In this document: positions 20,818-29,397 of the stretch, piece after piece | Position numbering within the stretch: position 1 is the stretch's first letter | Layout of the letters: each line of letters starts with the position of its first letter | Assembly: GCA_020845575.1 (NCBI GenBank) | Contig: JADLFL010000023.1 | Coordinates: forward strand, 62,001 to 126,000 | Direction of reading: 5' to 3' | Length of the DNA: 64,000 nucleotides | Source of the DNA: Acidobacteriota bacterium | GTDB lineage: Bacteria > Acidobacteriota > Vicinamibacteria > Vicinamibacterales > Vicinamibacteraceae | Translations under genes and position numbers: made by a program | The notes under the pieces: model-generated | Seen by the model: the letters and a program-made list of their open reading frames with translations, nothing else | Database searches by the model: none | Told to the model about the DNA's origin: nothing

Positions 20818-20938
20818 TCCTCATGGACCGTGGAGACGCGGCTCCGCTGGCTGCGCGAGATGGGATTCGCCGATGTGGACTGCCACTGGAAGTGGCGGGA
20901 GTTCGCGCTGCTCGGGGGACAACGACAACGGCAGTGCT
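20818..20938 (+). pseudogene. 3' fragment of a class I methyltransferase
   Basis: About 35 codons after an in-frame TGA (20815) read '[31 protein letters not shown]', split here at natural points. This is the conserved C-terminal end of SAM methyltransferases (LREAGF-DVDC-WKW-NFA--GG). No SAM-binding motif precedes it. The 420-bp gap from 20519 to 20937 otherwise holds only the heptad tract and an unconvincing 75-codon frame (20590-20817) in the same phase. The remnant runs directly into the 3' end of the convergent regulator gene. Confidence 0.6.
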
Positions 20939-22446
20939 CACCCGAACTCGTACAGGGCGAGGCGGTGATACAGCTGCTTGCGTGACAGGCCGAGCAGCGT
21001 CGCGGCGCGTGACTTGTTCCCCCGGGTCTCGCGCAGCGCACGTTCGATCAACTGACGCTCCATCGCGTGCACGTTCGTCGTCGTGGCGATCGTGCGCGGC
21101 GCGTGCAGGTCGAGGCCGAGGTGCTCGGCGGCGATCAATCCCCCTTCGGCGACGATGGCGGCGCGTTCGAGGGCGTTGCGGAGCTCGCGCGCGTTGCCGC
21201 GCCAGGGATGCGCGAGGAGCGCGGCCTTCGCGTCGTGCGTGAGGCCCGCGGGTGCCCGCCCGAGCGACGCCGACAGGTCATCCAGGTACTGCGCGGTGAG
21301 CGCGAGGATGTCCTCGGGACGCTCGCGCAACGGCGGGATCCGGATCCCGAAGACGTGCAGCCGGTAGTAGAGATCGTCGCGGAAGTCGCCGCGCTCCATC
21401 GCGACGCGCAGGTCGCGGTTGGTCGCGGCGACGAGCCTGATGTCGGCCTTCACGGGGCGCGTGCCCCCGAGCCGGGTGAACTCCCGCTCCTGGAGCACGC
21501 GCAACAGCTTCACCTGCGCCGACGGCGTCATCTCCCCCACTTCGTCGAGCAGCAGCACGCCTCCCGCCGCCGCTTCGATCTGTCCCACGCGTCGCTGCTG
21601 TGCGCCGGTGAACGCGCCACGCTCGAAGCCGAACAGTTCCGATTCGAGCAATTGCTCCGGCAGCGCCGCGCAGTTGACGGCCACGAACGGACCGTGCCGG
21701 CGTCCTGACACGCGGTGGATGTACCGCGCAAGCACTGCCTTGCCTGTCCCTGACTCCCCCGTCAGCATGACGGTGGTCTCGGTCGCGGCCACCTGCGTCG
21801 CGGCGTTGACCACCTGCATCCACGCCTGCGACGTGCCGGCCATCCGTCCGAGCCCGCGGCTCGAGTCGAGCGCGTCCGACAGCGCACGCACGCGCCGCTC
21901 CAGCCGCTGCGCGCGCGCTCGTGCTTCCCTCGTCTGTTCGGCTGCCTCCGCAAGCTGCTCGTGCGACAGCCCCAGTGCCATGTGCAGCGCGATGTGCCGC
22001 GCCACGGGGACGTCGCGCTCCGAATAGGCCCCCGGCGTGCGCGACCAGAAGTGCAGCGCGCACCGCTGCTGTCCTGCGCGCACGACCACCGACATCACCG
22101 CGCGATACCCCGACTCGCGCAGGCGCTCGCCGTAGTCGGCCGGCTCGAGCGCGGCCCATGGCGCGTCGAGCGTGGTGATGTCGTCGACGATGCGGGACCA
22201 GCCGTCCTGGAGGGTGGCGATCTCCGCGCTGCTGATGCGGATGAGCGCCGGCCCATCCTCGTTCGAGAACGCGTGCGCCACCAGCGCGCGCGCATCGTCA
22301 TGGCGCGTCATCACCAGCCTGTCGTGCGGCAGGACGTCTCGCACCGTCTCGGACACCTGCGGGAACACCTCCCTGATGTCCAGCACCGAGCCGACGAGTT
22401 CGAGCAGGCGTTCGGAGACTTCGATGGGCAGCGCCATCTGATTCAT
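20938..22446 (-). CDS. sigma-54-dependent activator (GAF-AAA+-Fis)
   Basis: A 502-residue bacterial enhancer-binding protein. An N-terminal GAF-like sensor (about 25-160) and a short coiled coil (163-190) precede the sigma-54 AAA+ domain, with Walker A 'GESGTGKA' (230-237), the sigma-54-contacting 'GAFTGA' loop (277-282) and Walker B 'LLLDEVGEM' (298-306). A Fis-type HTH ('[22 protein letters not shown]') is at the C-terminus. The order resembles NorR/FhlA rather than response regulators, so a small ligand rather than phosphorylation probably controls it. It is divergent from the RND efflux operon, whose promoter has a sigma-54 -24/-12 signature. Confidence 0.92.
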
Positions 22447-22470
22447 CGGATTGTACCCACAGGCACATGT

Positions 22471-22486
22471 TGCGCCTATAGGCGCA
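22471..22486. promoter_or_regulatory. 16-bp perfect palindrome, candidate enhancer site (UAS)
   Basis: TGCGCCTATAGGCGCA is fully self-complementary, and the flanking ATG-t and CAT extend the symmetry imperfectly. It lies 24 bp before the regulator start and about 80-95 bp upstream of the -24 box at 22565, the usual distance for an enhancer-binding-protein site. Binding is inferred. Confidence 0.6.
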
Positions 22487-22562: not shown

Positions 22563-22579
22563 CTGGCTGGAGAATTGCT
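22563..22579 (+). promoter_or_regulatory. sigma-54 (RpoN) -24/-12 promoter
   Basis: CTGGCTGGAGAATTGCT fits the YTGGCACGRNNNTTGCW consensus, with GG at 22565-22566 and GC at 22577-22578 at the required spacing; only the A and C of the CACG part differ. Predicted transcription start is about 22590, next to the adaptor start codon (GTG 22586 / ATG 22592). The neighbouring gene encodes a sigma-54 activator. Confidence 0.7.
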
Positions 22580-22585
22580 TCATAA

Positions 22586-23782
22586 GTGAACATGATCGTG
22601 CGTTCTCTCCTGCCCGGCCTCCTGCTGGCCCTTGCCCTGCCTGTCGCCTGCGCGCGCTCGGAAGCGCCGCCTCCGCCACAGGCGCCCCCACCGCCAACGG
22701 TTCCCGTCGTCGAGGTACAACCCGAAACCGTGGCCGTGGAACGCGAGTGGGTCGCGACGCTCGACGGCCACGTCAACGCGCAGATTCGACCGCAGGTGAG
22801 CGGCTATCTCGTGCGCCGGCTGTACACCGAAGGTGCGCCCGTGAAGAAGGGCGCCGTGCTGTTCGAGATCGACGCGCGGACGTTCACCGTGGCGTTCGCA
22901 CAGGCGGAGGCGCGGCTCGCGGAGGCACGCGCGCAACTGGGACGCGCGGATCGCGACGTGGCGCGCAACACGCCGCTCGCGCAGGAGCGCGCCATCGCGC
23001 AGAGCCAGCTCGACAACGACATCCAGGCCCAGCTCGCCGGACAGGCCGCCGTCAAGGCCGCCGAAGCCGCCGTCGACGCGGCCCGCCTGAACGTCGAGTT
23101 CACGCGCGTGCGTTCGCTCGTCGACGGCGTGGCCGCGATCGCGAACGCGCAGATCGGCGATCTCGTCGGTCCGCAGACGCTGCTCACCACCGTGTCGCAG
23201 GTCGATCCGATTCGCGCGTACTTCTCGCTCAGCGAACGCGAGTACCTGGAACTCGCCGACGCCATCAACTCGACGGCGGCGTCGCGGCTCTGGAGCACGG
23301 GCTCCGGCGTCCAGCTCACGCTCGCCGACGGCGTGACGTATCCGCAGCGCGGCCGCTTCCTCGCCGCCGATCGACAGATCGACGCGCGCACGGGCACGCT
23401 GCGCCTGAGCGCGACGTTCCCGAATCCCCGCGGTGTCCTGCGTCCCGGCCAGTACGGTCGCGTGCGCGTCGACGCACGAACGGTCACCGATGCGTTACTC
23501 GTCCCGCAGCGCGCGGTCACCGAGGTGCAGAGCGGCACGCAGGTGCGCATCGTTGCCGCAGACGGGAAGGTGGAAGTCCGCCACGTGCAGATGGGTGCGC
23601 GCGTGGGTTCGCGCTGGCTCGTCGAGCGCGGACTCGCCGCAGGCGACCGCGTCATCGTCGATGCCGGGCAACTCGCCGCAGGCACGGTGGTGAAGACGAC
23701 GCCCTATGTCGAGCCCCGAGCGACGGCAGCAGCGGCAGCGCCAGGTGCGGCCCCTTCGGCCGCGACGACGGGGGGGCGCTGA
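22586..23782 (+). CDS. RND efflux periplasmic adaptor (membrane fusion protein)
   Basis: A 398-residue HlyD/AcrA-type adaptor joining inner-membrane pump and outer-membrane channel. It has a lipoprotein-like signal ('LLPGLLLALALPVAC', Cys near residue 22, slightly atypical lipobox), a proline-rich linker, lipoyl half-motifs around 'NAQIRPQVSGYLVRRLYTEGAPVKKGAVLFEID', an Ala-rich alpha-hairpin (about 95-165) and beta-barrel/MP domains. Start is GTG 22586 or ATG 22592. No good ribosome site fits within the transcript predicted from the sigma-54 promoter, so initiation may be leaderless. First gene of the efflux operon. Confidence 0.92.
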   Translation: MNMIVRSLLPGLLLALALPVACARSEAPPPPQAPPPPTVPVVEVQPETVAVEREWVATLDGHVNAQIRPQVSGYLVRRLYTEGAPVKKGAVLFEIDARTFTVAFAQAEARLAEARAQLGRADRDVARNTPLAQERAIAQSQLDNDIQAQLAGQAAVKAAEAAVDAARLNVEFTRVRSLVDGVAAIANAQIGDLVGPQTLLTTVSQVDPIRAYFSLSEREYLELADAINSTAASRLWSTGSGVQLTLADGVTYPQRGRFLAADRQIDARTGTLRLSATFPNPRGVLRPGQYGRVRVDARTVTDALLVPQRAVTEVQSGTQVRIVAADGKVEVRHVQMGARVGSRWLVERGLAAGDRVIVDAGQLAAGTVVKTTPYVEPRATAAAAAPGAAPSAATTGGR

Positions 23783-23784
23783 TC

Positions 23785-26700
23785 ATGGCGGAGTTCTTCA
23801 TCCGCCGGCCGATCGTGGCGATCGTCATCGCGATCGTGACGGTCATCGCCGGCATCGTCTCGGTGCGATCGCTTCCCGTCGCGCAGTTCCCCGACATCGT
23901 GCCGCCGCAGATCATCGTCACCGGCACGTACACCGGCGCCGACGCCGAAACCATCGAGCAGTCGGTGGCCACGCCGCTCGAACAGCAGATGAACGGCGTG
24001 GACGACATGCTGTACATGCAGTCGACCAACGGCAACGACGGGTCGATGCAGCTCACCGTCACGTTCGACATCGAGACCGATCCGAACATCGATCAGGTCA
24101 ACGTGCAGAACCGCGTGTCGCAGGCGCAGCCGAACCTGCCGACGGAAGTGACGCAGTTCGGCTTCACCATGCGCAAGTCGACGGGCCTGCCGATGATGAT
24201 GGTGTCGCTGTACTCGCCGTCGAACGAGCACGACGCGCTGTACCTGGCCAACTACGCCAACATCAACATCATCGACGCGCTGTACCGCGTGAGCGGCGTG
24301 GGCGACGTGCGCGTGTTCGGCGCGGGCGAGTACGCAATGCGCATCTGGCTCCAGCCGGATCGCCTCGCGTCGATGGCACTGACGATCCCGGAGGTTGCGC
24401 GCGCCGTGCAGCAACAGAGCTCGGTGAACCCCGCGGGGCAGGTGGGCGGACGTCCGGGTCCGGCGGACCAGGAGTTCACGTACACGGTCAGGGCACGAGG
24501 CCGGCTTCAGGCGGCCGAGGAGTTCGGCGCGATCGTGCTGCGCACCAACGCCGACGGGTCGCTCGTCCACCTGCGCGACGTGGCGCGCGTCGAGCTCGGC
24601 GCGCTCAACTACCAGCAGATCGGCAGGTCCAACGGTCAGCCGGGCGTCGGCGTCGCGGTGTTCCAGGCGCCGGGCTCGAACGCGCTCGACGTCGCCGCCG
24701 GCGTGCGCGAGGTGATGACCGTCCTGCGCGAACGATTTCCGGAAGGCGTCGACTACCGCTACACGCTCGACACCACCGCGCCCGTCTCGGAAGGCATCAA
24801 GGAGATCACCAAGACGCTCGTCGAGGCGATGATCCTCGTCATCCTCGTCGTGTTCCTGTTCCTCCAGAACTGGCGCGCCACGCTGATCCCGATGCTTGCC
24901 GTGCCCGTGTCGCTCATCGGCACGTTCGCGGTCTTTCCCCTGCTCGGCTTCTCGGTCAACACGCTGTCGCTCTTCGGGCTCGTGCTCGCCATCGGCCTCG
25001 TCGTGGACGACGCGATCGTCGTGGTGGAGGCGGTGGAACAGCACATCGAGCACGGCATGAGTCCTCGCGAGGCCACGGTCAAGGCGATGAAGGAAGTCTC
25101 CGGCCCCGTCATCGGCATCGCGCTGATCCTCGCGTCGGTGTTCGTGCCCATCGGCCTGATGGGCGGCATCCAGGGACGCCTGAACCAGCAGTTCGCGATC
25201 ACGATCGCCGTCTCTGTGCTGATCTCGGCCTTCAACGCGCTGACACTGTCGCCCGCGCTCTCGGCGATGCTGCTGCGCCCGCGCCGCGAGTCGCGCGGAT
25301 GGCTCGGCCGGATCTTCGGCGCGATCAACCGCTGGCTCGAACGCATGACGCGCGGCTACGTGTCGCTGAGCCACGGCCTGATCCGCAAGCCCCTCATCGG
25401 TCTCGCCGTACTCCTGGCCTTCTTCGCGATGACGGCCGGCCTCGGACGCAGGCTCCCCACGAGCTTCCTTCCCGAAGAGGACTACGGTTACTTCCTGCTC
25501 AACATCCAGTTGCCACCCGCGGCATCGCTCGATCGTACCGACGCCGTCACGCGCAAGGTCGACGATCTGCTGGCGCGCACCGAGGGCGTCCGCAACTTCA
25601 ACACCATCGTCGGCTTCAGCCTGATCACGCGCGTGACGGCGCCCAACAACGCGTTCTATTTCGTGCAGCTCGCGCCATGGAGCGAACGCGAGGGACCGGG
25701 ACAGGACGCGCGATCGATCGTCAATCGCCTGAACGGCGCCCTGCGCACGACGGCGCCTGAAGCGGTGGCGTTCGCCATCATGCCGCCCGCGATTCCAGGG
25801 CTTGGATCCCAGGGCGGCTTCTCGCTCTGGCTGCAGGATCGCGGCGGCGCGTCGGTCGAGGACGTCAATCGCGAACTGCAGCAGTTCCTGACCGCCGCGC
25901 GTGCGCGTCCCGAACTGGCGGGCGTCACGTCGCCGTTCAGCGCCAACGTGCCGCAGGTGTACGCCAACGTCGATCGCGAGAAGGCGCTGCGACAGGGACT
26001 CGCACTCGGCGACGTCTACCAGACGATGCAGGCGTATCTGGGTGGGCTGTACATCAACCAGTTCAACGCGTTCGGACGTCAGTGGCGCGTCTTCCTCCAG
26101 GCCGAAGGCGACACGCGCTCGAGCCCGGATCAAATCGGCCAGTTCTACGTACGCAACGACTCGGGCGGCATGGTGCCGCTGTCGGCGGTGCAAACGCTCT
26201 CGCCGACGTTCGGGCCGCAGTTCACCAATCGCTTCAACGTCTATCGCGCCGTGCAGGTGAACGGCGCCGCGGCACCCGGCTACAGCTCCGGACAAGCGAT
26301 GACCGCGCTCGAAGAGGTGGCGCGCGCCACGCTGTCGCCGACGTTCAGCTACGACTGGGCCGACCTCTCCTTCCAGGAGAAACGCGCGGCAGGCTCCACG
26401 CAGACGACGTTCGCGCTGTCGCTCGTCTTCGTGTTCCTGATTCTCGCGGCGCTGTACGAGAGCTGGTCGTTGCCGTTCTCCGTGCTGCTCACCGTGCCCA
26501 TCGCCGTCTTCGGTGCGTTCGTAGGCCTGTTGATGCGCGGACTCGATCTCGACGTCTACGGACAGATCGGCGTCGTCATGCTGATCGGTCTCGCGGCCAA
26601 GAACGCGATCCTCATCGTGGAGTTCGCCAAGTATCGGCTGGAGGAAGGCAGGCCGCTCGTCGAGGCCGCGCTCGAAGGCGCGCGTACACGCCTGCGGCCG

Positions 26701-26931
26701 ATCCTGATGACGTCGTTCGCGTTCATTCTGGGTTGTGCTCCGCTGTGGGCCGCGCAGGGTTCCGGCGCCGCCGCGCGCCGCATCCTCGGCACCGTGGTGA
26801 TCACGGGCATGCTCGCCGCGACGCTCATCGCGATCTTCCTCATCCCTCTCTTGTTCGTGCTGTTCGAGCGACTGGCCGAGCGCCTCAGCGGCGCGCCCGT
26901 CGTGCACACGCCATCGGAGTTCTCGTCGTGA
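23785..26931 (+). CDS. RND multidrug efflux permease (HAE1 family)
   Basis: A 1048-residue inner-membrane proton-driven pump of the AcrB/MexB type, full length for the family. It starts 'MAEFFIRRPIVAIVIAIVTVIAG' (first membrane helix). The proton-relay Asp pair of TM4 is in 'GLVLAIGLVVDDAIVVVEAVEQH', and 'GLAAKNAILIVEFAK' is the TM10 lysine region. Large periplasmic loops follow TM1 and TM7. It begins two bases after the adaptor stop and ends inside the GTGA overlap with the outer-membrane factor. Substrates are unknown; the sigma-54 activator suggests induction by a specific signal. Confidence 0.95.
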   Translation: MAEFFIRRPIVAIVIAIVTVIAGIVSVRSLPVAQFPDIVPPQIIVTGTYTGADAETIEQSVATPLEQQMNGVDDMLYMQSTNGNDGSMQLTVTFDIETDPNIDQVNVQNRVSQAQPNLPTEVTQFGFTMRKSTGLPMMMVSLYSPSNEHDALYLANYANINIIDALYRVSGVGDVRVFGAGEYAMRIWLQPDRLASMALTIPEVARAVQQQSSVNPAGQVGGRPGPADQEFTYTVRARGRLQAAEEFGAIVLRTNADGSLVHLRDVARVELGALNYQQIGRSNGQPGVGVAVFQAPGSNALDVAAGVREVMTVLRERFPEGVDYRYTLDTTAPVSEGIKEITKTLVEAMILVILVVFLFLQNWRATLIPMLAVPVSLIGTFAVFPLLGFSVNTLSLFGLVLAIGLVVDDAIVVVEAVEQHIEHGMSPREATVKAMKEVSGPVIGIALILASVFVPIGLMGGIQGRLNQQFAITIAVSVLISAFNALTLSPALSAMLLRPRRESRGWLGRIFGAINRWLERMTRGYVSLSHGLIRKPLIGLAVLLAFFAMTAGLGRRLPTSFLPEEDYGYFLLNIQLPPAASLDRTDAVTRKVDDLLARTEGVRNFNTIVGFSLITRVTAPNNAFYFVQLAPWSEREGPGQDARSIVNRLNGALRTTAPEAVAFAIMPPAIPGLGSQGGFSLWLQDRGGASVEDVNRELQQFLTAARARPELAGVTSPFSANVPQVYANVDREKALRQGLALGDVYQTMQAYLGGLYINQFNAFGRQWRVFLQAEGDTRSSPDQIGQFYVRNDSGGMVPLSAVQTLSPTFGPQFTNRFNVYRAVQVNGAAAPGYSSGQAMTALEEVARATLSPTFSYDWADLSFQEKRAAGSTQTTFALSLVFVFLILAALYESWSLPFSVLLTVPIAVFGAFVGLLMRGLDLDVYGQIGVVMLIGLAAKNAILIVEFAKYRLEEGRPLVEAALEGARTRLRPILMTSFAFILGCAPLWAAQGSGAAARRILGTVVITGMLAATLIAIFLIPLLFVLFERLAERLSGAPVVHTPSEFSS

Positions 26932-28406
26932 TCACGTCATCTCTGTATCAGAGCGGGCACCGGGCACCGGGCATCGGGCACCGGACAGCCGGGGACCGAG
27001 CGTCAGGTCTGCTCACACCACGGCGTTCGTTGTCGGTCATCGCGTTGCTGCTCACGACGATGGTCGTGGGTGGATGCACGTTGGGTCCGGACTACGCGCG
27101 TCCACCTGTGACGACGCCAGACACGTTTCGTGGCGTCGACACCGCAGTGGACACGACGCGCTCGCTCGGCGAAGAGGCGTGGTCGACCGTCTTCACCGAC
27201 GAGACGCTGCGCGCGTTGATCACCGAAGCGCTCGCGGGCAACTACGGCGTGCGGATCGCCGCCACGCGCGTGCTGCAGTCGGCCGCGCAACTCGGCATCA
27301 CGAGCGCCGATCAGCGTCCGACCATCACGGGGCAGGTCACCACATCCGGCCAGCACGGCACGATCTTCGCCGGCCAGTCGGTCCCCACCATCGGCATCGT
27401 CCAGGCCAACGCCGGCATGGCGTGGGAGCTCGATTTCTGGGGCCGGTATCGACGCGCCAGCGAAGCCGCGCGCGCCGAGCTCGAAGCCAGTGAGTGGGGC
27501 CAGCGCGCCATCGTCATGAGCCTCGTGAGCGAGGTGGCGTCGCAGTACTACGTGCTGCGCGCGCTCGATCTCGAGCTGGAGACGTCGACGCGCACGCTCG
27601 CCGTGCGCGAGGAATCGCTGCGCATCACGCAGACGCGCGAGCGCGGCGGCGTGGCGCCACTGGTCGACGTGCGACAGGCCGAACAGCTCGTCGCGGGTTC
27701 GCGTGCGCAGATCGCCGACGTGCAGCGGCGCATCGCGCAGGTGGAGCATGCGCTGAGCCTCCTGCTCGGGCGCGCGCCCGGTCCCATCGCGCGCGGTGCG
27801 GCACTCATCGATCAGACTCATGAACCCGACGTCCCCGCGGGACTTCCCTCGTCGCTGCTGGAGCGGCGGCCCGACGTCCGTCAGGCGGAATTGCGCCTTG
27901 CCGCAGCAACCGCACGCATCGGCGTGGCCGAGGCGCTGAAGTTCCCGCAGATCGGCCTGACGGCATCGGGCGGCGTGGCGAGCACGTCGCTCGGGCGCCT
28001 GCTCTCGTCGGGCACGTGGGCCGTCGCCGGCAACCTCGCGCAGCCGATCTTCGACTCGGGCCGCAACCGATCGCGTGTCGCGCTGGCCGAGGCGCAGGCG
28101 CAGGAAGCGACGCTCGCGTGGCAGAGCACCGTGCTGCAGTCGTTCAGGGAGGTGTCCGACGCGCTCGTGGCCTACCAGCGCACGCGCGAGGTGCGCGCGG
28201 CGCAGGAAGACCTCGTCACCGCCGCGACAGACGCGCGGCGACTCGCCGACCTGCGCTATCGCGGCGGCGTGACGAGCTACCTGGAAGTGCTCGACAGCGA
28301 GACGCGCCTCTTCGCGGCGCAGCTCGCACTCGTGCAGGCCCAGCTCGGCGAACTCACGTCGTACGTCGCCGTCTACCGCGCGCTGGGCGGAGGATGGGAA
28401 GGATAG
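26928..28406 (+). CDS. RND efflux outer-membrane lipoprotein (NodT/OprM family)
   Basis: A 492-residue TolC-like channel. The lipobox 'MVVGGC' is followed by 'TLGPDYARPPV', typical for the OprM group. Two OEP repeats cover about 75-270 and 285-480, with 'WELDFWGRYRRASEAARAEL' and 'LLERRPDVRQAELRLAAATARIG' as family signatures. The GTG at 26928 overlaps the permease stop (GTGA). The first 33 residues before the hydrophobic segment translate a GGGCACC heptad tract, so the N-terminus is lengthened, or translation starts downstream (TTG near 27030). Third gene of the efflux operon. Confidence 0.9.
   Translation: MITSSLYQSGHRAPGIGHRTAGDRASGLLTPRRSLSVIALLLTTMVVGGCTLGPDYARPPVTTPDTFRGVDTAVDTTRSLGEEAWSTVFTDETLRALITEALAGNYGVRIAATRVLQSAAQLGITSADQRPTITGQVTTSGQHGTIFAGQSVPTIGIVQANAGMAWELDFWGRYRRASEAARAELEASEWGQRAIVMSLVSEVASQYYVLRALDLELETSTRTLAVREESLRITQTRERGGVAPLVDVRQAEQLVAGSRAQIADVQRRIAQVEHALSLLLGRAPGPIARGAALIDQTHEPDVPAGLPSSLLERRPDVRQAELRLAAATARIGVAEALKFPQIGLTASGGVASTSLGRLLSSGTWAVAGNLAQPIFDSGRNRSRVALAEAQAQEATLAWQSTVLQSFREVSDALVAYQRTREVRAAQEDLVTAATDARRLADLRYRGGVTSYLEVLDSETRLFAAQLALVQAQLGELTSYVAVYRALGGGWEG
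26955..26984. repeat. heptanucleotide repeat (GGGCACC)4
   Basis: Units GGGCACC, GGGCACC, GGGCATC, GGGCACC lie within the translated N-terminus of the outer-membrane factor. The same family recurs at 61747-61802. Confidence 0.75.
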
Positions 28407-28410
28407 TGGC

Positions 28411-28478
28411 GGCTTAGGGCTCACGGCTCAGGGCTTAAAGGCTCAGGGCTTAAAGGCTTAGAGGCACAAAGGCACAAA
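28411..28478. repeat. GGCTCAG/GGCTTAAA 7-8-bp tandem repeat
   Basis: About nine consecutive 7- or 8-bp units (GGCTTAG, GGCTCAC, GGCTCAG, GGCTTAAA and variants drifting to GGCACAAA) directly follow the efflux operon. Confidence 0.75.
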
Positions 28479-28480
28479 AG

Positions 28481-28513
28481 CTCGGAGGTAGGGCCGGCTC
28501 TCCGAGCCCGGCC
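28481..28513. repeat. dispersed palindromic repeat (GTAGGGCCGGCTC type)
   Basis: CTCGGAG at 28481-28487 pairs with CTCCGAG at 28500-28506. The whole stretch closely matches, in inverted orientation, 10388-10414. A related sequence lies at 51569-51625. It could terminate the efflux transcript, but no T-run follows. Confidence 0.55.
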
Positions 28514-28539
28514 GCGCACACGGAAGGGAGGCTCGCGCA

Positions 28540-28770
28540 ATGAGTCAACGCAACGTCGAATGTCTGCTGGGGCGGCTGCTCACGGACGAAGATCTGCGGA
28601 CGGCGTTCGTCCGTGATCCCGCCGACACGCTGACGATGTTGCAGCGGCAGGGCTGGGACCTCACCGCAACGGAGGTCGACGCGCTGATCTCGGGCGACCC
28701 CGCCATGTGGCGCGACATCGCTCGACGCATTCCGCCGCGGCTGCAGCGATCGAGTCTCAGGACAGGATGA
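28540..28770 (+). CDS. Os1348/NHLP-clan RiPP-precursor-like peptide
   Basis: A 76-residue acidic-then-basic peptide with no signal sequence and a strong ribosome site (GGGAGG, eight bases before ATG). The sequence 'MSQRNVECLLGRLLTDEDLR' followed by 'FVRDPADTLTML', a Trp-containing hydrophobic turn, and 'ALISGDPAMWRDIARRIPPRL' matches the layout I recall for the Os1348-type NHLP/Nif11-related leader-like proteins, which include RiPP precursor leaders. There is little core region after the leader (QRSSLRTG), so it may be a leader-like orphan. No lanthipeptide, radical-SAM or YcaO enzyme is nearby; the RND efflux operon ends 134 bp upstream. Confidence 0.6.
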   Translation: MSQRNVECLLGRLLTDEDLRTAFVRDPADTLTMLQRQGWDLTATEVDALISGDPAMWRDIARRIPPRLQRSSLRTG

Positions 28771-28790: not shown

Positions 28791-28810
28791 CCGCCGGATT
28801 CATCCGGCGG
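28791..28810. terminator. hairpin after the peptide gene
   Basis: CCGCCGGAT / ATCCGGCGG form a perfect 9-bp stem with a 2-nt centre, 20 bp after the peptide stop. There is no T-run. The preceding GTGTAGCCGCCGGAT matches the start of the dispersed repeat at 55246-55260, so it is also a short member of that family. Confidence 0.45.
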
Positions 28811-28854: not shown

Positions 28855-29397
28855 ATGGCAGCCCGCAAAGGCGCGACCCGCGCCGCCGACATCCACGCAG
28901 AGGTGCGTCACGCCTTGTCGCGCGGCGAGATGCAGAGTGCCACGCTGGCCGAGTGCCTGGCGGTCAATCAGGCGACCCTGGCACGAGCCGTGTTCCCCGA
29001 CCTGCCGGTACCGGCGCTCGGGGCCATCGATTCCGCCTGCGAGCGGGGCATTCTCAAACGCATGACTCGCATCGGTGCCGTGTTGCTGGACGAGGTGGGC
29101 GAGGCGGGCATCGCGCAATGTCGTTCGCACGGCGCGGACACGGAGCGCGGGTGGGCCTGCTCCATGGTCGGAGCACAGTCGCACCGGCCGACCCCACCCG
29201 CCGCATCTGTCAGCGCGCCCAGCGCAACCTCGCATAGCCTCTTCCGAAAGAAGGAGAAGGCGTCAAGGTCGAAAGCGACGAGGGCCCTACGGGACCCGCT
29301 ACAAATGCAGCCGTGCCTCCTGTCGCGCCCGCAACGAACAAGTCTCCGAACAGGACGCCTCTCGCCGCGCAACGCAACTGTAGAGCTATCTATCTGA
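28855..29397 (+). pseudogene. 5' fragment of a DNA-alkylation-repair-like (HEAT) gene
   Basis: The first 110 or so codons ('MAARKGATRAADI', 'SATLAECLAVNQATLARAVFP', 'TERGWACSMVGAQ') resemble the N-terminus of a HEAT-repeat DNA-alkylation-repair-like family found in Acidobacteriota. After about 29175 the frame continues as low-complexity, Ser/Arg-rich sequence without resemblance to the family and stops at 29397. A full-length relative would be clearly longer. The fragment ends where a 5'-truncated VWA gene begins, which points to a deletion that fused two genes out of frame. A functional short protein is not excluded. Confidence 0.5.

Follow-up and report, generated by a model that had tools for sequence, protein, structure and literature searches.

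An Os1348-family leader-like small protein encoded with a sigma-54 activator and an efflux operon in Acidobacteriota

The one studied member of the Os1348 family is Os1348 of Pseudomonas sp. Os17 (PDB 6LK7), described as a six-helix protein. Its gene is clustered with others for putative modifying functions, and antibiotic activity falls when it is lost. The cluster adjoins the emhABC RND genes, and Os1348 was reported to build up inside cells of an emhB mutant, which the authors take as suggesting transport (PMC7726476, in the part of that study consulted here). Os1348 is also the closest described relative of the protein reported here, which is likewise a member of the NF038399 family, is predicted to have six helices and adjoins an RND operon. 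The two differ in their surroundings, since Os1348 is GacA-controlled and encoded with a GNAT protein, an HEXXH protein and a SagB-type dehydrogenase (consulted part of PMC7726476), none of which is found at our locus, where there is instead a sigma-54 activator (enhancer-binding protein, EBP) and a -24/-12-like site. A leader-like domain is what our protein shares with the NHLP and Nif11 RiPP precursors (Haft 2010, PMC2887384, consulted part), and a protein/protein docking model has been reported for NHLPs (PMC12455567, consulted part).

The locus lies in a stretch of 64,000 nucleotides, hereafter the window, from an Acidobacteriota bacterium of the Vicinamibacteraceae (assembly GCA_020845575.1, contig JADLFL010000023.1, positions 62,001 to 126,000); its features are collected in Table 1. 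Another kind of precedent is provided by the pairs PspA-PspF and HrpV-HrpS, in which small proteins regulate sigma-54 activators. By analogy, these may be compared to the window in that a regulatory protein is made from an EBP-controlled promoter and has the EBP as its constant neighbour. They differ in their fold, which as far as we are aware is unrelated, and in that the pairing in the window is known from the genes.

Table 1. Features of the locus, in window coordinates.
Feature	Position	Strand	Basis
Sigma-54 activator (EBP), divergent from the pump operon	20938..22446	-	Pfam, alignment, fold
Overlapping dyads GGCACA-N3-TGCGCC and TGCGCCTATAGGCGCA, possible activator binding site (tentative)	22462..22486		Sequence
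Sigma-54-type -24/-12 promoter-like site TGGCTGGAGAATTGCT, 5' of the pump operon	22564..22579	+	Pattern match
Membrane fusion protein (MFP)	22586..23782	+	HlyD_3 / HlyD_D23 / CusB_dom_1
RND pump, AcrB family	23785..26931	+	ACR_tran 1108.6 bits
Outer-membrane factor (OMF)	26919..28406	+	OEP 153.6 bits
Ribosome-binding region, purine-rich, GGAAGGGAGG	28522..28531	+	Sequence
Os1348-family leader-like small protein, 76 aa	28540..28770	+	NF038399 50.6 bits; six predicted helices; best fold match 6lk7
Inverted repeat CCGCCGGATTCATCCGGCGG, possible operon end, without T-run	28791..28810		Sequence; starts 20 bp past the small-protein stop

The small protein and the RiPP-precursor question

The open reading frame of 76 codons runs from an ATG at 28540 to a stop codon at 28768-28770 and has a GGGAGG at 28526-28531, shortly 5' of the ATG, in keeping with the strong ribosome site claimed for it in the original prediction, which was made from the sequence and had placed its product by its leader-like architecture in the Os1348/NHLP clan. 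This placement is borne out by the HMM search, in which the NCBIfam model NF038399 ("Os1348 family NHLP clan protein") aligns along its whole length (1-63 of 63) with residues 4-69 at 50.6 bits, for a cut-off of 40. Other models of the same kind stayed below their cut-offs, namely TIGR04509 (NHLP-related, 24.7 bits against 34) and the Nif11 model TIGR03798 (16.9 against 32.3) in NCBIfam, and PF14407 (29.3 against 48) and the Nif11 family PF07862 (17.2 against 23.8) in Pfam, so that by these models the protein is not a Nif11 member. The structural model of the small protein (mean pLDDT 73.8) has six helices, and its first match is 6lk7 both with Foldseek (probability 0.94, TM 0.53/0.59, but E 0.35) and with VIA-align (Z 4.7, rmsd 4.2 Å over 64 residues). 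DesB/LigA-type domains and the SonA borosin leader come close behind it. Because of the Foldseek E-value, the match to 6lk7 is weak when taken alone, and with a fold this small and helical, scores as modest as these are not proof.

Two of the four further genomes of the genus have an orthologue at the same position (77 and 69% identity), and in both the gene order is divergent activator, MFP, RND, OMF, small protein. Thus a family match and conservation outside the strain, the lack of either of which was to have counted against the prediction, were both found. The substitution pattern indicates that the gene is under purifying selection, with a dN of 0.17 against a dS of 1.0 in the comparison with locus L011 and dN well under dS in all seven gene pairs compared. 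A chance open reading frame is ruled out by the family match, the orthologues and the dN/dS. The gap between the OMF and the small-protein genes is ca. 10 bp in L011 and L012 and 133 bp in the window, where it is lengthened by a short repeat-rich stretch with degenerate GGCTCAGGGCTTAAA-type repeats (28404-28500) that are absent from both relatives. Downstream of the gene, the inverted repeat of Table 1 was not among the sites listed by the terminator scan, and a 180-aa open reading frame (28855-29397) gave no convincing Pfam or NCBIfam match and is possibly a decayed gene.

Unlike the NHLP and Nif11 precursors, the protein has no core and no double glycine (there is no GG in it), no maturase was found for it, and it scores under the Nif11 and TIGR04509 cut-offs. 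All of 38 relatives share a C-terminal R-L/I-x-K/R motif (defined permissively); among them, a GG occurs beyond residue 40 in three, and a cysteine is present within the last 18 residues in 18 and missing there in 20. As judged from these sequences, the small protein has no variable core, which agrees with the scant core remarked on at the outset. The lack of a maturation enzyme within reach was also correctly seen, as none is found among the genes called near the peptide, where the neighbours are the EBP, the pump and unrelated genes. The proposal that a distantly encoded system modifies the peptide fared worse. The genome of the window (G000, completeness 95.84%) gave no match to YcaO (PF02624) or to LanC-like/LanM proteins (PF05147), and its only SPASM radical SAM protein is encoded on another contig, scores under every listed NCBIfam cut-off and is nearest to cofactor maturases.

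Paralogues do occur in the genus, namely a second peptide clade (L013-L015, see below) and the peptide of L059 (G001:C1:2005000-2024900), the third Os1348-like gene of G001. At positions 7958-10052 of L059 there are YcaO, TfuA and a 71-aa Os1348-family peptide ending in ...SRSIPTESMFW, with no EBP alongside. This is likely a real RiPP-type cassette in the same genus as the window, and since it has YcaO and TfuA and lacks an EBP, the RiPP-type and the EBP-linked kinds can be told apart. At another locus, L062 (3779-5116, minus strand), the encoded protein of 445 residues is Os1348-like at its N-terminus, contains the cysteine motif CSVGCWFCG and has no Pfam match at E<=1e-4.

The activator, the efflux operon and their conservation

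The efflux operon 5' of the small-protein gene is complete, as had been said, with an HlyD/CusB-type MFP, an ACR_tran RND pump and an OEP outer-membrane factor, while the divergent sigma-54 activator had been overlooked and belongs to the conserved neighbourhood as well. The activator has the AAA+ domain (PF00158, 228 bits), AAA_lid and a Fis-type HTH (HTH_8), and the alignment shows the GAFTGA loop in the AAA+ domain. Pfam detected no sensor domain in it, and the predicted structure of its N-terminus (mean pLDDT 83.6) resembles GAF domains, the best Foldseek match (E 7.7e-8) being 3k2n, a GAF sensor domain from a different sigma-54 regulator. The promoter-like site has its -12 element at 22578, which puts +1 near 22590, and the MFP therefore probably starts at the GTG at 22598 rather than at 22586. 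Dyads similar to those between the activator and this site were present in only 5/40 upstream regions versus 12/301 controls; a shared activator-binding dyad was accordingly rejected, and we regard the site as no more than tentative in the window and in the loci closest to it.

NF038399 was over its cut-off in 16 of 162 genomes of the order, and a profile (A2) of 15 small proteins found members in 22 of 396 genomes of the phylum. From the order search we took all 21 loci over the cut-off and three below it (L060, L061, L062), leaving out the weaker rows (<=30.5 bits). Profile A2 contains 15 of the 22 peptides of A1, without L051, L056, L059, L060 and the ABC-pump clade, so that the phylum search leans toward pump-linked peptides. 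Using phmmer seeds, we annotated the surroundings of 42 loci and counted 39 of these, i.e., without the L059 cassette and without L060 and L062, which are below the cut-off (L060 does have an EBP). An EBP was found within 7 kb in 29/39 loci, an efflux part in 34/39, both in 26/39 and either one in 37/39, as against 2/40, 1/40 and 0/40 (EBP, efflux part and both) for random 20-kb regions drawn from two complete genomes of the genus only (G001, G004). In many of the 13 loci that do not have both partners, a contig end cuts the neighbourhood short; this is not so for L045, L056 and L085. The EBP is just beyond the limit in L045 (8.1 kb) and L048 (7.3 kb), L085 has a pump and no EBP within ca. 10 kb on either side, and in the flanks of L056 neither partner was found. 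As the genes were called with a home-made codon model, small ones may be missed.

The co-occurrence of peptide and efflux genes that was to be checked is therefore real (34/39 loci), but the EBP is the more constant partner and the pump can be exchanged: the same kind of EBP and small protein is found with several types of RND pump or with ABC-type pumps. The second clade of the genus (L013, L014, L015), for example, has an activator, the peptide, an OMF, an MFP, ABC proteins and an ABC-2 permease, with the peptide stop overlapping the OMF start in L013 and L014. Across the seven genomes of the family there are six sensor-covering (full-length) homologues of the window EBP, each adjoining one of the six EBP-linked peptides, and the three peptide-free genomes of the family (G003, G005, G006) have only AAA-domain matches to it. 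At the level of the order, a profile of the EBP sensor matched (E<=1e-10) in 16/16 genomes with an over-cut-off peptide; of all 43 genomes with such a match, 27 have no over-cut-off peptide and hold mostly a distant EBP group of one family (97-124 bits), for which the short flanks of the loci examined contained no peptide. Sensor scores above 150 bits, a line picked after the scores were known, occur in 15 of the 162 genomes, 14 of which are among the 16 with the peptide (Fisher p 3e-17).

The distances between peptides also follow those of the activator. Over the 19 loci that have EBP, RND and MFP, the correlation of the peptide distances was 0.90 with the EBP sensor, 0.87 with its AAA+ domain, 0.51 with the MFP and 0.47 with the RND pump, a pattern that linkage and species descent can explain in part, although it is not seen for the pump genes of these loci. 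Partial correlations in the same loci were 0.87 for peptide and sensor given RND, and 0.03 for peptide and RND given the sensor. The bootstrapped difference between AAA+ and RND (21 loci) was 0.39, with a 95% range of 0.18 to 0.58, and an earlier run with 20 loci had given 0.91 for EBP, 0.49 for RND and 0.55 for MFP. The peptide tracks the EBP much better than the pump, and so pumps are exchanged while peptide and activator are kept together.

Sigma-54-type promoter elements are common upstream of these genes. With a first pattern in which both GG and GC were required, they were found within 150 bp of 19/40 peptides versus 25/302 genes. A looser pattern, TGGC-N8-TG, adopted after inspection of the sequences (other classes show TTGG or TTGA at -12), was present within 130 bp upstream in 39/48 loci versus 22/303 of the remaining genes in these loci and, on average, 2.56/48 in Markov shuffles. 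At 22-60 bp upstream it was present in 33/38 loci, a count without L059, L100 and eight Desulfobacterota loci, versus 9/303 control genes. In the window, L011, L012 and L053, where the peptide comes last, it was the region 5' of the first pump gene that was scored, and a -24/-12-like element precedes the MFP gene in the latter three too. In L048, L050 and L051 the peptide is transcribed away from the pump and has a -24/-12-like site of its own, and L056 has a promoter-like site without a nearby EBP. The loose pattern also occurs, at 52 bp, in the YcaO-linked L059, presumably a chance match.

Relatives in Desulfobacterota

A Geobacteraceae contig (L113) prompted a search of the Desulfobacterota, in which 16 of 395 genomes had a match at E<=1e-7, six of them over the cut-off. 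We examined 20 loci (including L113), comprising eight free-standing small proteins, seven C-terminal domains of formate dehydrogenase-like proteins (L220 so identified by NCBIfam, the rest by a near-identical tail), two tails of proteins with a receiver domain (identified by Pfam in L224 and from the matching tail in L227) and three other things (L223, L226, L229). Five of the eight free-standing relatives have an intact EBP directly upstream on the same strand, 167-216 bp away, which is an NtrC-type response regulator in L215, L217, L218 and L225 and a PAS activator in L113. In L213 the gene just upstream is an EBP fragment, in L216 the opposite strand has an EBP-like match that lacks GAFTGA, and phmmer found no EBP match in the flanks of L214. 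No efflux gene adjoins any of the eight, and none was found within 3.9 kb (phmmer); farther away, beyond other genes, there is an OMF at 4.8 kb in L213, and there are ABC, OMF and weak MFP matches at 4.0-7.4 kb in L215. The strict promoter pattern was found in only 3/8, with near-matches that have GG and GC elements in L113, L213, L214 and L217.

Several of these loci deserve mention on their own account. L213, L214 and L217 are three Os1348 paralogues of one genome (G861) with a common promoter-like element, TGGCAYRGATTTCGCT, 90 bp upstream, one of them after an intact EBP, one after an EBP fragment and one after neither. The C-terminal domains on formate dehydrogenase alpha-like proteins (L219-L222, L228, L230, L231) score 34-41 bits to NF038399, and several of them adjoin NuoE/NuoF-like genes and a response regulator. 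In L224 (6092-7087, minus strand) and L227 (7486-7953, minus strand) the domain stands behind a receiver domain, and the next gene looks like a histidine kinase. L226 (279-3067 in reverse-complement coordinates, length 3705) has a leader-like peptide with a Gly/Cys-rich tail that adjoins a radical-SAM-like gene and looks like a separate RiPP cassette.

Possible roles and their significance

A gene module made of the small protein, an EBP and usually an efflux pump is strongly supported by these data. As to its function, the reading that we prefer, with a probability of about one half, is that a leader-like fold has been reused in a sigma-54 module as the partner of the activator, probably in feedback and mostly at efflux operons, and is not a RiPP precursor. 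The GAF-type EBP would sense a signal and switch on the -24/-12 promoter, and pump and small protein would be made together from it, steps suggested by the anatomy of the locus and by established EBP biology. The small protein, left unmodified, would then most likely bind the EBP directly and tune it, along the lines of PspA and PspF, a step that we infer from the co-variation and the constant linkage. Counting against this reading are the loci with no EBP nearby (L056, L085, L214), the order genomes with a sensor match and no over-cut-off peptide, the few strict promoter matches in Desulfobacterota, and the setting of Os1348 among putative modifying genes with its effect on antibiotic activity. 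A wider version of the proposal is that, in two phyla or more, sigma-54 activators generally have an Os1348-type protein as partner, each activator inducing a protein that docks on it, with varied outputs downstream (RND pumps, ABC pumps and chemoreceptor-type genes); taken as one claim, we consider this tentative and somewhat short of an even chance.

One other explanation is that of a RiPP precursor or a secreted peptide, which a distantly encoded enzyme would modify and the adjoining pump would export. NF038399 is a RiPP-clan family, the Os1348 cluster adjoins emhABC and the emhB mutant retains Os1348 in the cell (PMC7726476, consulted part), and L059 puts a relative from the same genus next to YcaO and TfuA. 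The lack of YcaO and LanC-like matches in the genome of the window, the short and conserved tail with its rare GG and inconstant cysteine, and the retention of the EBP as partner across pump types and phyla make it distinctly unlikely. Thus, of the orphan RiPP beside an efflux operon that had been proposed, the observation and the family stand and the RiPP reading is probably wrong, while we favour the other option offered there, reuse of a leader-like domain in a different role, over that of a substrate of a modification system.

An accessory part of the pump, e.g., an assembly or substrate-loading factor, would account for the 24/40 loci in which the small-protein gene is on the same strand as a pump gene and within 200 bp of it. 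Yet the class of pump varies while peptide and EBP stay paired, the partial correlation with RND vanishes once the sensor is given, several peptides run away from the pump under a promoter-like site of their own, and the free-standing Desulfobacterota proteins have their nearest efflux-type genes kilobases away, if any; we regard this role as very unlikely. Finally, the small protein could be one more target of the EBP with an independent role in the cell (such as a stress protein that binds a metabolic or signalling enzyme) and no action on the EBP itself. That the domain can serve other partners is indicated by Desulfobacterota, where it is fused to receiver domains and to the C-terminus of formate dehydrogenase, and L056 has the promoter-like site with no EBP nearby, but the tight co-variation with the EBP sensor and the one-to-one presence in the family speak against such independence, and we think it unlikely.

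We found no report of the pairing of such a small protein with a sigma-54 activator in the open-licence literature, including that on NHLP proteins with efflux systems. The NCBI family model labels these genes as RiPP-clan, so that genome mining may end up pursuing nonexistent products. If the proposed partnership of small protein and activator is true, the leader fold would be a reusable protein-binding module, consistent with the docking model for NHLPs (PMC12455567, consulted part), and there would be an undescribed layer of control over the efflux pumps of Acidobacteriota. It would also give a fresh angle on Os1348 and the adjoining emhABC pump in Pseudomonas.
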